Origin: Halorhabdus sp. BNX81
GTDB lineage: Archaea; Halobacteriota; Halobacteria; Halobacteriales; Haloarculaceae
Direction of reading: 5' to 3'
Length of the DNA stretch: 64,000 nucleotides
Assembly (NCBI RefSeq): GCF_029229925.1
Contig: NZ_CP107254.1
Location: 1,922,001 to 1,986,000 of the forward strand
Each line of letters starts with the position of its first letter. The stretch's first letter is position 1. This document shows positions 8,406 through 12,139 of the stretch, piece after piece. The notes beneath the pieces were generated by a model. The model saw only the letters and a program-made list of their open reading frames with translations. It made no database searches and was not told the DNA's origin. A program made the position numbers and the translations under genes.

Positions 8406-10556
8406 ATGGAAACCCTGCCACTGTCCTCAACACCGCGGTTCGAACCCCTCGTTGCACCGGCAGGTATCCAAGTCGTCGATCCGATCGACGGCGGGCAGTT
8501 TACGTTTCTGACGCCCGAGCCCGTCGAGACGGACCCCGCACCCGAGGACGCGTTACCGGTTCCGGTCGACGGCGCAGTCTCGGTCGATACCGACGTGATC
8601 CGAACCCCGTATCTCGTCGGCGTCTGGATCAGAAACGGGGAGTTCGATCTCGTCGAGCAATGTACCGGGGGCGATCAGGTGTCACTTCCCGACGGACGAT
8701 ACGTCGTCGAGTTTTCGTCCGTCCAGCTCAAACTCTATCTCGGGATCGACGGGCCTGCAACCGTCGATGCGACGGGTGATCTCGTCGAATTTTCGACGCC
8801 GGGACAGTCCGACGTGGTGATCGGGCTCCGTTCGTATCACGAACAACCCGCACGGACGATCACGACGACAGAGAGCCCACATGACGTCATGAAGGCGATT
8901 TCACAGTTCCGTGGTGCGCTGAAGACCACGTCACCGGAGCGGTCGTTTCCAACGCTTCGCGGTCATCCCCCGCTGGTGGAGTTCGGCGAGGAGTTTTCCG
9001 CACCTGGTGGTACTCGGCTGTCTCCGGCGTCGCTGTCGATCGAATTGCCACCCCGCTGGGATCGTATCTTGCCAGCCGCGCCGCTGTCGTACTATCTCGA
9101 TGCGGAACTCGTCCCCGGCGAACAGGCACAGTTGCATATCGACGGGCAGACGGTTCCGCTCGTGGGGCCGGACGGCTACGAACAGCGGCTTGCCAAGATC
9201 CTCAAGCACGTGTTCACGCTTGATTGCGTGGTCCGGACGGAAGGGCTGTACAACGTTGATCTCCACGAGCGGTCGGTGATCGAGGAACACACCGATCTGG
9301 ATCTCGACCGACTGTACGACCTGTCACTTGCGGAGCGAACGCAGGCGTACCTTGAGGTTCCTTTCGAGGCCGTCGAACCTGCCACACCGGAGTGGAAGCT
9401 GACGGCTGACGTCCAGCCGGATCCCGAGAACGTTCCCGTGTTACCGTTCCTGGCTTCGGACCTTGCCATGATTCGGGCGACGGGAGACGACGATATCGAA
9501 CCGGAAGACCTCTCTGAGGCCTCACCGGATGTCGAATCGTTCTTCCGAGACGGTCCGACGATGCCTGACCGGCCGGTATTGCTTCGCGGGGCTGCCGACG
9601 TGCGATCAAAGACCACGTCAGAGGACTCGACGGTGGCAGAACGAGTCTTCCGGCCGGATCCCACTGACAGCCTGATGCACACGTTCGTCGGTGACGGGAT
9701 CCCGCTGGGTGCCACCAAGATGACGCCCGAGATGTTCCGCCGCCGTCTGGAGTACGAACCAGTCGAGTCCGACCGGGTTCGGGTCGACGTTATCGTCAAC
9801 GAGGAAGCGATGAGCGACGAGACCGCCGTCTCGGACGTCTACGGAACGCGCGACTGGATCGACTTCGACGTCACGATCCACTCGGATCTCACGCAGGGCG
9901 AACTCGCCGATGTCTTCCAGCGCGATACTGACTTTCTCCACTATATCGGCCACGTCGACGACAACGGATTCAAGTGCAGTGACGGATATCTCGACGTCCG
10001 ATCGCTGTCGTCAGTCAATCTTAGCGGGTTCCTACTCAATGCCTGCCAGTCCTACGAACAAGGTCATGCGCTCGTCGATGCCGGTGCAGTCGGCGGGATC
10101 GTCACCCTCGCGAATATTCCGAATCCGACCGCGACACGGATCGGGAAAAACCTTGCACGTTTGCTAAATACAGGGTTTTCAATCGCCACTGCCCGATCCT
10201 TTTTGGAGAAGGATGAACAATTAGCTAAGCGGTACATGATCGTGGGGGATGGCCACGCAAATATCGTGGAGAACCAATCTGGTGCTCCGATTGTAATCAA
10301 AGATGTGAATCAAGAAGACGAACGGTATGTTGTTGATATTCAGGGATATCCAGTTGCAAAAATATCAATAGGTGGATTTCGAAGCTGGCATAACAATGGA
10401 GTCAACAATATAGGCCATAATTTAATCTCATCAAGAATACAAGATATACGCATGAGTGAGCATGAGCTGAAGTCTTTACTAGAAAATGACGATTTCCCAG
10501 TGATTTACGAAGACAACATCACTTGGAGTGCCGATCTGTCACAACGTCTGTTTTAA
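8406..10556 (+). CDS. CHAT-domain (caspase-fold) protease-like protein
   Basis: The 716-aa protein has a long N-terminal region without recognisable repeats and a C-terminal segment that looks like a CHAT peptidase: DFLHYIGHV with predicted catalytic His516, then SGFLLNACQSY with predicted catalytic Cys547, then GAVGGIVTLANI. The order and spacing fit the His-Cys dyad of the CHAT/caspase fold. No TPRs, signal peptide or membrane segments are seen. ATG 8406 is preferred because related haloarchaeal proteins start shortly before the VVDPIDG segment; ATG 8352 is possible. The last about 400 bases are strikingly AT-rich compared with the rest of the gene. The stop codon overlaps that of the micropeptide gene on the other strand. 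Confidence 0.75.
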   Translation: METLPLSSTPRFEPLVAPAGIQVVDPIDGGQFTFLTPEPVETDPAPEDALPVPVDGAVSVDTDVIRTPYLVGVWIRNGEFDLVEQCTGGDQVSLPDGRYVVEFSSVQLKLYLGIDGPATVDATGDLVEFSTPGQSDVVIGLRSYHEQPARTITTTESPHDVMKAISQFRGALKTTSPERSFPTLRGHPPLVEFGEEFSAPGGTRLSPASLSIELPPRWDRILPAAPLSYYLDAELVPGEQAQLHIDGQTVPLVGPDGYEQRLAKILKHVFTLDCVVRTEGLYNVDLHERSVIEEHTDLDLDRLYDLSLAERTQAYLEVPFEAVEPATPEWKLTADVQPDPENVPVLPFLASDLAMIRATGDDDIEPEDLSEASPDVESFFRDGPTMPDRPVLLRGAADVRSKTTSEDSTVAERVFRPDPTDSLMHTFVGDGIPLGATKMTPEMFRRRLEYEPVESDRVRVDVIVNEEAMSDETAVSDVYGTRDWIDFDVTIHSDLTQGELADVFQRDTDFLHYIGHVDDNGFKCSDGYLDVRSLSSVNLSGFLLNACQSYEQGHALVDAGAVGGIVTLANIPNPTATRIGKNLARLLNTGFSIATARSFLEKDEQLAKRYMIVGDGHANIVENQSGAPIVIKDVNQEDERYVVDIQGYPVAKISIGGFRSWHNNGVNNIGHNLISSRIQDIRMSEHELKSLLENDDFPVIYEDNITWSADLSQRLF

Positions 10557-10693
10557 GGCCCAACAGTAACACTGCTGTGGACAGCAGCAGCTGCCCCCAT
10601 CTGCGTTAGCAGAACGAGGAGCATGAACAGGACGCCGATCATTCGCGGGTGCTGTGCCAGGAAGCTCGTTTCCTCCGAGTCTGAGTGGCTCAT
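10553..10693 (-). CDS. DUF7503-like membrane micropeptide (46 aa)
   Basis: The 46-aa peptide starts MSHSDSEETSFLAQHPRM, has one hydrophobic helix (IGVLFMLLVLLTQMG), an Ala-rich turn, and ends in SSVTVGP. This plan (polar start, HPRMIGVLF, TQ, AAAA, closing GP) is that of the haloarchaeal DUF7503 micropeptides. A TATA-like box at 10719-10727 is about 30 bases before the ATG, suggesting a leaderless transcript. It converges with the CHAT gene and shares the ttaa of both stop codons. The helix could sit in the membrane or be a cleavable signal; function is unknown. Confidence 0.8.
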   Translation of the reverse strand: MSHSDSEETSFLAQHPRMIGVLFMLLVLLTQMGAAAAVHSSVTVGP

Positions 10694-10948: not shown

Positions 10949-11542
10949 GTGAGTTTTGATGTCCCTGACGCCGACGGCCCACCGCAAGAAGCAGCGAACG
11001 TCCTGTGTATCTCGCCCGAGATCAGCACGTCCAAAGAGGAGTGCTGCGAGGAATTGTTGACGCGGCGCGGCGCACCTGACCGAATCGTGGGCGTCACCGT
11101 CGCCTCGTCGCCCGGGAGTCGGATGGCGGAGTGGGGCAACGCGATCAACCCCATGACGACCGATCTGACCTTCATCGATGTCTCCCACGGCGGCCGTTCG
11201 GCCGCGATGTCCGCCGACGGGTTCGGCGGTCAAAACGGCGCACTCGTCGACATCGTCGAAGTGCAGGACGTCGACCTCCGCCAGATCGGCAAGGAACTCA
11301 CCAACCAACTCGACAGCGATAGTGACGAAACGGTCGTGGTCTGTCTCGATTCGTTGACGGACCTGTTGCAGTTCGATTCCGAAGAGACACTGACTCGGTT
11401 TCTCCACGTGCTCACCACGCGTGTGAGCGAGGCAGGAGCCTCCGCCCACTACCACATCGACGCCCACGGGCATCCTGAACGCGTCTTCGAGACGCTTTCG
11501 CCGTTGTTCGATGCGACTGTTCGGGCTGAGTCGGACCTCTAG
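10949..11542 (+). CDS. DUF7504 family (degenerate RecA/KaiC-like) protein
   Basis: The 197-aa protein starts at GTG 10949. It resembles the haloarchaeal DUF7504 group, with NVLCISPEISTSKEECCEELLT at the start, the central TVVVCLDSLTDLLQFDSEETLTRFLHVLT strand-helix and SAHYHIDAHGHPE near the end. The fold looks RecA-like but no Walker A motif is visible, so ATP use is unlikely. Such genes often sit next to HalX or bacterio-opsin-activator type regulators, as here. A signalling role is an inference from context. Confidence 0.7.
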   Translation: MSFDVPDADGPPQEAANVLCISPEISTSKEECCEELLTRRGAPDRIVGVTVASSPGSRMAEWGNAINPMTTDLTFIDVSHGGRSAAMSADGFGGQNGALVDIVEVQDVDLRQIGKELTNQLDSDSDETVVVCLDSLTDLLQFDSEETLTRFLHVLTTRVSEAGASAHYHIDAHGHPERVFETLSPLFDATVRAESDL

Positions 11543-11623: not shown

Positions 11624-12139
11624 ATGGCCCCGACCCAGGCCGTGTTGGTCAGTGCCCCAGACGAAGCAGTGTCGTCGTTGATCGCTCCGCTCCGGGATCG
11701 ATGGTCGACACGGACTGCAACGACGCCGGCTGAAACCAAGACGAGCCTCGACGAACGAGTCGCCGTCGTTATCATTGATCCGGCAGTTGAGTCGCTATCA
11801 ATCGACGATCTCGCGACCATGATCAACGATCGGGTCCCGGACGCTCAAATTCTCCAGTTCGGCCAGAGCAACGATCCGAGTGCGGGGACCGCTGACGCGG
11901 TTCTCACTCGCGGTGCCGACGAAGAAACGCTTTGTTCGACTGTCGATCGTCTCCAGCGTAGAGCCCGATACAAGAGATTGCTCTCGCGGTTTTATGCGAA
12001 ATCCCGATCCCGGGGCGAACAGCCCCCAGAAGAGCAAACTGACGAAGGTGCCCTGAAAATCGCCGATCTCAAGTCCGAACTCGACGAAGTTGCGGCTGAG
12101 TTGGACGATGAAGATCTCTTCGATGCTGCCTTGGAATGA
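11624..12139 (+). CDS. HalX-domain response-regulator-like protein
   Basis: The 171-aa protein has an N-terminal receiver-like half (VLVSAPDEA, VAVVIIDPAVESL, ILQFGQSND) and a C-terminal HalX helix pair with RARYKRLLSRFYAKSRSRGEQ. The receiver half is divergent; the residue in the place of the phosphorylated Asp is in IIDPA, and the acidic pocket is not clear. No histidine kinase is adjacent. ATG 11624 follows a TATA box at leaderless spacing, so the longer frame from 11555 is not used. It probably acts with the DUF7504 protein upstream. Confidence 0.7.
   Translation: MAPTQAVLVSAPDEAVSSLIAPLRDRWSTRTATTPAETKTSLDERVAVVIIDPAVESLSIDDLATMINDRVPDAQILQFGQSNDPSAGTADAVLTRGADEETLCSTVDRLQRRARYKRLLSRFYAKSRSRGEQPPEEQTDEGALKIADLKSELDEVAAELDDEDLFDAALE

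Follow-up and report, generated by a model that had tools for sequence, protein, structure and literature searches.

A protease of predicted CHAT fold and a DUF7503 micropeptide with hypervariable ends: a candidate self-specific recognition pair of Halobacteria

Introduction

RRNPP systems of Firmicutes (PMC10075063) are matched pairs of adjacent genes, one for a short propeptide whose mature, C-terminal part varies and one for a large partner protein in the cytosol. The receptors are TPR proteins, often with an HTH domain. In agr-type systems, a hypervariable, linked specificity region covers the end of the protease gene and the peptide and is swapped as a unit. AgrB is an integral-membrane peptidase; AgrC is a sensor kinase. 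CHAT-fold proteases are represented by Craspase (Csx29/Csx30) and SAVED-CHAT. Csx29 has a cognate small-protein substrate encoded nearby. Proteases also take part in some fungal allorecognition pairs (PMC12881547, PMC11138114). Haloarchaeal cells fuse, more readily within species (PMC5496957). The function of HalX, an output domain of haloarchaea, is undocumented (PMC5847659). The Pfam entries for DUF7503 (PF24335) and DUF7504 (PF24336) give no function, and nothing on either family or on a haloarchaeal CHAT protein was found in the literature searched (preprints and most subscription journals excluded).

The locus described here, from a 64-kb stretch of haloarchaeal DNA (the window), resembles RRNPP systems in the adjacency of its short peptide to a large, predicted cytosolic partner, agr-type systems in its linked specificity region, and Craspase and SAVED-CHAT in its protease fold. 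The pair is near-universal in Halobacteria and shows evolutionary signs of a recognition system, with conserved bodies, matched ends that are hypervariable, and apparent replacement as a cassette.

Results

Features of the locus

The genes of the window locus are listed in Table 1. A preliminary description had reported a convergent pair with both stop codons in one TTAA, and the ORF coordinates confirm it. The further statement that this overlap locks the two genes together goes too far: many CHAT/DUF7503 pairs have the overlap but others do without it, and stop-to-stop distances range from −19 to +183 nt.

Table 1. Positions of the features of the locus, numbered within the 64-kb window
Feature	Position	Strand	Remarks
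CHAT/caspase-fold protease gene (predicted)	8406–10556	+	ATG start, 716 aa, stop 10554–10556
His516, predicted catalytic, HYIGH motif	9951–9953	+	Same residue in 52/52 relatives; also in second subfamily
Cys547, predicted catalytic, LNACxS motif	10044–10046	+	Same residue in 52/52 relatives
Hypervariable C-terminal domain, residues ~620–716	10263–10553	+	Identity falls from 0.89 to ~0.5 at residue 621; silent-site identity 0.42 against 0.70; AT-rich
TTAA common to both stop codons	10553–10556		From ORF coordinates; same overlap in 49/142 pairs
DUF7503 micropeptide gene, 46 aa	10553–10693	−	ATG start, stop 10553–10555; Pfam PF24335
Peptide tail VHSSVTVGP	10556–10582	−	Hypervariable residues, then invariant Gly-Pro C-terminus
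Conserved peptide leader	10583–10693	−	Hydrophobic segment and A-x-A (signal-peptidase-like) end
DUF7504 gene, recurrent neighbour	10949–11542	+	Pfam PF24336, E 4e-34; here downstream of CHAT
Gene related to receiver-HalX-type proteins	11624–12139	+	Iterated profile search; divergent here

Protease and micropeptide

The 716-aa protein is a predicted protease of CHAT fold, of the clan CD caspase-like type, as judged from its structural model. It has no match in Pfam, NCBIfam, PADLOC or PDB sequences, so its assignment to CHAT rests on fold and motif. The Pfam CHAT profile gives weak matches in 9 of 52 relatives (best E 4e-5) and none in the window protein. The AlphaFold model has a mean pLDDT of 86.3. 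In this model, a caspase/gingipain/separase/CHAT fold spans residues ~328–623 (VIA-align against known structures), with matches to gingipain RgpB (Z 18.4–18.9; 247 residues at 3.2 Å in the Z 18.4 alignment), SAVED-CHAT (Z 15.8; 167 residues, 2.8 Å), separase (Z 15.7) and Craspase TPR-CHAT (Z 14.8). H512, H516, C524 and C547 are invariant in the 52 relatives. The features of clan CD caspase-like peptidases, a predicted caspase-hemoglobinase fold and a conserved His (GH motif)/Cys dyad, are thus present, and the catalytic pair His516/Cys547 proposed earlier is right by motif. The earlier view of a CHAT-like protein without TPRs also agrees with the predicted structure: the N-terminal 150 residues are modelled as beta strands, and Pfam TPR matches are absent. 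The variable C-terminal domain alone is modelled with a pLDDT of 76 and does not convincingly resemble any PDB structure (best Z 4.5). An export signal is not visible in the protein, which is predicted to be cytosolic.

The micropeptide is a member of DUF7503 (E 3e-20; 72 bits against a cut-off of 27); a PADLOC scan of it gave only a weak, chance-level match. Its Kyte-Doolittle maximum is 2.15 over 19 residues. The name membrane micropeptide, given earlier, needs a qualification, because this hydrophobic segment may serve as a signal peptide and not as a lasting anchor in the membrane. The leader has Ala or Gly at position −10 and Ala, Val, Thr, Ser or Gly at position −12, each in 133/138 peptides. 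Gly-Pro is the C-terminus of 165 of the 170 peptides examined. Ile-Asp stands in its place in four DUF7503 peptides (L125, L159 and two others). The terminal dipeptide is encoded with all four Gly and all four Pro codons and followed by any of the three stops; since all synonymous codons are used, it is conserved at the protein level. A DNA-level cause of the ending was considered and rejected, codon and stop usage being unrestricted and gene spacing variable.

Distribution and pairing

Of 391 Halobacteria genomes, 365 have relatives of the protease and 335 have DUF7503, Haloferax volcanii being one of the latter; each is usually present in one copy. Loci were collected by an alignment-based scan of genome contigs, a single-sequence query having matched nothing. 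DUF7503 lies within 300 nt of 142 of 159 CHAT ORFs (151 loci), far beyond chance, and the orientation is convergent in 142/142 pairs. Most pairs outside those with the 4-nt TTAA overlap (49 of 142) are 1–7 nt apart. Genomes with two CHAT genes often have two peptides, each beside its own protease. The micropeptide had been suggested as a substrate, sensor or immunity partner of the protease; the conserved pairing strongly supports partnership, whatever the role. The earlier proposal was to fall if the two families did not co-occur in other genomes, and the counts come out strongly in its favour.

Outside Halobacteria, only four protease matches were obtained in the phylum sample; three retain the GH and Cys positions, and no convergent GP peptide is convincing in any of the four. 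At L067:5137-7214 an apparent frameshift (assembly error or real decay) divides the DUF7503-facing CHAT gene into two ORFs, and a second, intact CHAT gene lies behind it. Haladaptatus (L114, L126) has tandem CHAT copies, 51–55% identical in the N-terminal part and 34–37% in the C-terminal domain; no GP peptide was detected in the first 700 nt downstream of these.

DUF7504 is present in 64/106 loci and in most of these lies immediately upstream of CHAT. Receiver-HalX response regulators or their relatives are present in 30/106 loci, mostly just upstream of DUF7503 and on its strand. The corresponding gene of the window has no Pfam match and resembles a receiver that has diverged or degenerated. 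Neighbours of these two kinds suggest a signalling locus and not a defence island. Among the recurrent neighbours, no cas gene stood out.

Hypervariable ends

Among 115 pairs from related species, protease identity is ~0.84–0.95 up to residue ~620 (measured over residues 421–620) and ~0.5 from residue 621 on, that is, over the last ~95 residues. The peptide shows the same division. Its leader is mostly 90–100% identical between related species, the six residues before GP (positions −8 to −3) have identities of 0.35–0.78, and GP itself is identical in all 115 close pairs (1.00). Loci L017 and L018 are 98% identical in the N-terminal part, 100% in CHAT, 40% in the C-terminal domain, 100% in the leader and 57% in the tail; for the window and L002 the values are 91, 92, 37, 100 and 43%.

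Silent sites follow the same pattern. Identity at fourfold-degenerate sites is 0.71 (N-terminal part), 0.69 (CHAT), 0.42 (C-terminal domain), 0.77 (leader) and 0.47 (tail). Because silent sites have diverged alongside the protein, replacement of the DNA is indicated, selection on amino acids being insufficient by itself. GC content is lower in the C-terminal domain than in the N-terminal part in 135/135 cases (in the window gene 39% against 60% elsewhere in the gene). Similarity in the domain is uncorrelated with similarity in the N-terminal part (r = 0.06 in 19 Haloarcula, 0.05 in 21 Halorubrum), whereas the two conserved parts of the protease correlate with each other (r = 0.97 and 0.85, respectively). 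The loci of the 12 Haloferax are more closely related, and there the domain does correlate with the N-terminal part (0.76). Data for the C-terminal domain reject the rest-of-gene trees both in Haloarcula (AU p = 0, lnL losses 386–397) and in Halorubrum (AU p = 0, lnL losses 263–275). The conserved protease parts show a mild tree conflict between themselves, so some ordinary recombination is also present. With silent sites diverged and trees rejected, the tail and the C-terminal domain look like a back-to-back cassette of ~320 nt that is replaced as one piece. No orphan C-terminal cassette was found adjoining the locus. Linked hypervariable partner genes with trees in conflict with those of the flanks, the pattern of allorecognition-type loci, are found here.

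Tail and domain similarity are correlated beyond the rest of the protease. Partial Mantel values, given the rest of the protease, are 0.528, 0.167, 0.289 and 0.305 in four groups (p = 0.0005, 0.0185, 0.021 and 0.0005); the weak value, 0.167, is that of Halorubrum. The leader, used as a control, gives a null result in three of the four groups and a positive value in Haloarcula (0.372), possibly from a 1-aa indel. Pooled permutation within clusters reached the observed association of tail and domain in 0/2000 cases. Only tens of bases separate the tail from the domain, and some of the correlation could come from linkage alone. Residue-level covariation does not single out the domain, which holds 6 of the top 100 couplings against 16 expected. 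Two controls lack the variability: in close pairs of a second CHAT subfamily, conservation of the domain is about that of the rest of the protein, and the GP tails, where present, are conserved; in Haloplanus the tail and the domain (67–87%) are both conserved. A real, specific interaction of tail and domain is probable.

Variant peptides

Six Haloplanus-like genomes (one genus) lack DUF7503 and carry, in the same convergent position, a hydrophilic peptide made of tail repeats. The unit, for example ADGNGGGISGP, is repeated 4 to 13 times (twice in a Haloplanus MAG), and GP stands at the stop codon in every case. The repeat peptides (L045, L050, L131, L151–L154; e.g. TADGNSGGISGPY) consist of near-identical copies homogenised within each gene. 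Two Haloplanus-like members keep an ordinary DUF7503, one with a tail nearly the same as the repeats (GNSGAISGP). Peptides of Halomarina are divergent and end in AGNPGP or AANNGP. Haloplanus and Halomarina were considered as peptide-free exceptions and rejected as such, repeat or divergent GP-ending peptides being found at the same place.

Genome G123 (L173, L186, L227–L230) has 13 matches to distant CHAT paralogues. Convergent, long-tailed peptides ending in GP face four of the six copies checked, their longer tails following the same AAA end. This CHAT expansion is worth a separate study. The second CHAT subfamily (L231–L246; motifs HYIGHC and LNACGS) is an extra copy in many Halobacteria genomes, and its C-terminal domain is not hypervariable. 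A convergent GP-ending ORF, in some cases without a hydrophobic leader, faces 7 of 16 copies (background rate of GP endings 1.2%); none was detected for the other 9. In four genomes of family f3, the second-subfamily CHAT faces a soluble peptide ending in STYGGP or SSYGGP. Since repeat, soluble and long-tailed versions all end in GP, the constant element is the free C-terminal GP tail and not the hydrophobic leader.

Discussion

The preferred reading is a self-specific recognition pair of peptide and protease, controlled through the variable ends (probability roughly 55%). The CHAT protease, predicted to be cytosolic, would use its variable C-terminal domain to recognise the free tail of the micropeptide, formed by the variable residues and Gly-Pro. 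Binding of the cognate tail would act on the protease as a switch or a guide, through activation, inhibition or cleavage, and its output would feed the DUF7504 and receiver-HalX signalling genes that often adjoin. With the specificity ends back to back, both would be exchangeable together as one ~320-nt cassette, and selection would maintain many matched tail/domain versions in circulation. Such binding and its effect on protease activity may be used in self or kin recognition. Points against this reading are the negative residue-level covariation, the share that linkage may have in the correlation, the positive leader control of Haloarcula, the CHAT copies for which a GP peptide was not detected (tandem duplicates and 9 of 16 in the second subfamily), and topology: a leader resembling a signal peptide would place the tail outside the cell, while CHAT shows no export signal. 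A class-wide archaeal system of self-recognition or pheromone type, with matched, swapped alleles on a caspase-fold protease that tell kin from non-kin, perhaps when cells fuse or signal to one another, is a more tentative proposal, at less than even odds.

A secreted signal is rather unlikely. A Sec leader cut after A-x-A would free a 9-residue Gly-Pro peptide as a density or species signal, with CHAT as its maturation protease or intracellular receptor. The A-x-A end of the leader and the nearly fixed length of the tail suggest secretion as far as sequence can tell; the motif stands at a fixed place between a conserved leader and a variable tail. The longer tails that distant paralogues carry behind the same AAA end, the multi-copy tail precursors of Haloplanus and the receiver-HalX and DUF7504 neighbours are consistent with a signal, and a propeptide adjacent to a cytosolic receptor is the RRNPP layout (PMC10075063). 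Of the RRNPP propeptide features, adjacency and an A-x-A motif are present, yet leaderless versions exist. An export leader is missing from the repeat peptides of Haloplanus and from the soluble second-subfamily peptides, no export signal is visible in CHAT, and no recurrent importer gene is found among the neighbours of the locus. Leaderless peptides, together with a CHAT protein of this kind, suggest recognition inside the cell. It may be speculated that a setting of cell fusion might reconcile a secretion-like leader with intracellular recognition.

A guard in defence or cell death is unlikely. CHAT would be an abortive-infection protease, the micropeptide its inhibitor, trigger or membrane effector, and the variable ends the outcome of an arms race with viruses. 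CRISPR-linked CHAT effectors are known, Craspase and SAVED-CHAT are structural relatives, and a hypervariable AT-rich cassette fits an arms race. Defence genes are patchy, however, whereas this pair is near-universal and mostly occurs as a single paired copy in a genome, which fits an ordinary accessory of defence or cell death less well. PADLOC is unmatched by CHAT, and the recurrent neighbours are signalling genes. CHAT and peptide profiles gave no confirmed homologue among viral contigs in two IMG/VR scans of limited sensitivity.

That tail and domain are not matched at all, the ends being weakly constrained or co-replaced through adjacency without interaction, is still less likely. The tight linkage of tail and domain, the negative residue-level covariation and the weak Halorubrum correlation (0.167) speak for it. 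Weak constraint would not give an invariant GP, a well-predicted fold and silent-site divergence with sharp edges, and the second subfamily and Haloplanus conserve both parts together. A membrane tether, in which the tail of a single-pass DUF7503 docks CHAT at the membrane and specificity prevents mixing of paralogues, agrees with the hydrophobic segment of DUF7503 and the separately paired peptides of multi-CHAT genomes but is very doubtful, since Haloplanus and f3-family second-subfamily peptides lack that segment and single-copy genomes are equally hypervariable.

The locus differs from each of the systems that it resembles. RRNPP receptors are TPR proteins; the present locus, in an archaeal host, instead sets a peptide with an invariant Gly-Pro end in convergent orientation to a predicted CHAT-fold protease whose N-terminal region is rich in beta strands. 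The agr systems have co-directional genes, and their proteins are an integral-membrane peptidase (AgrB) and a sensor kinase (AgrC). Craspase and SAVED-CHAT differ in that the haloarchaeal protein has neither TPR nor SAVED architecture, its partner is of 46 aa and the pair is near-universal in an archaeal class. Fungal allorecognition pairs such as the protease/gasdermin het loci share linked, highly polymorphic partners and a narrow footprint of diversity (PMC12881547, PMC11138114). Those pairs are eukaryotic, and the likeness of the haloarchaeal locus to them is one of sequence pattern.

CHAT proteases, RRNPP-type peptide-receptor pairs and polymorphic allorecognition pairs are known kinds, and the locus itself is undescribed in the literature searched. 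If true, the proposal would give a genetic handle on haloarchaeal communication and on the preference for the own species in cell fusion. If the pairing is functional, the locus would be, to our knowledge, the first class-wide archaeal system of peptide-specific recognition built on a caspase-fold protease.
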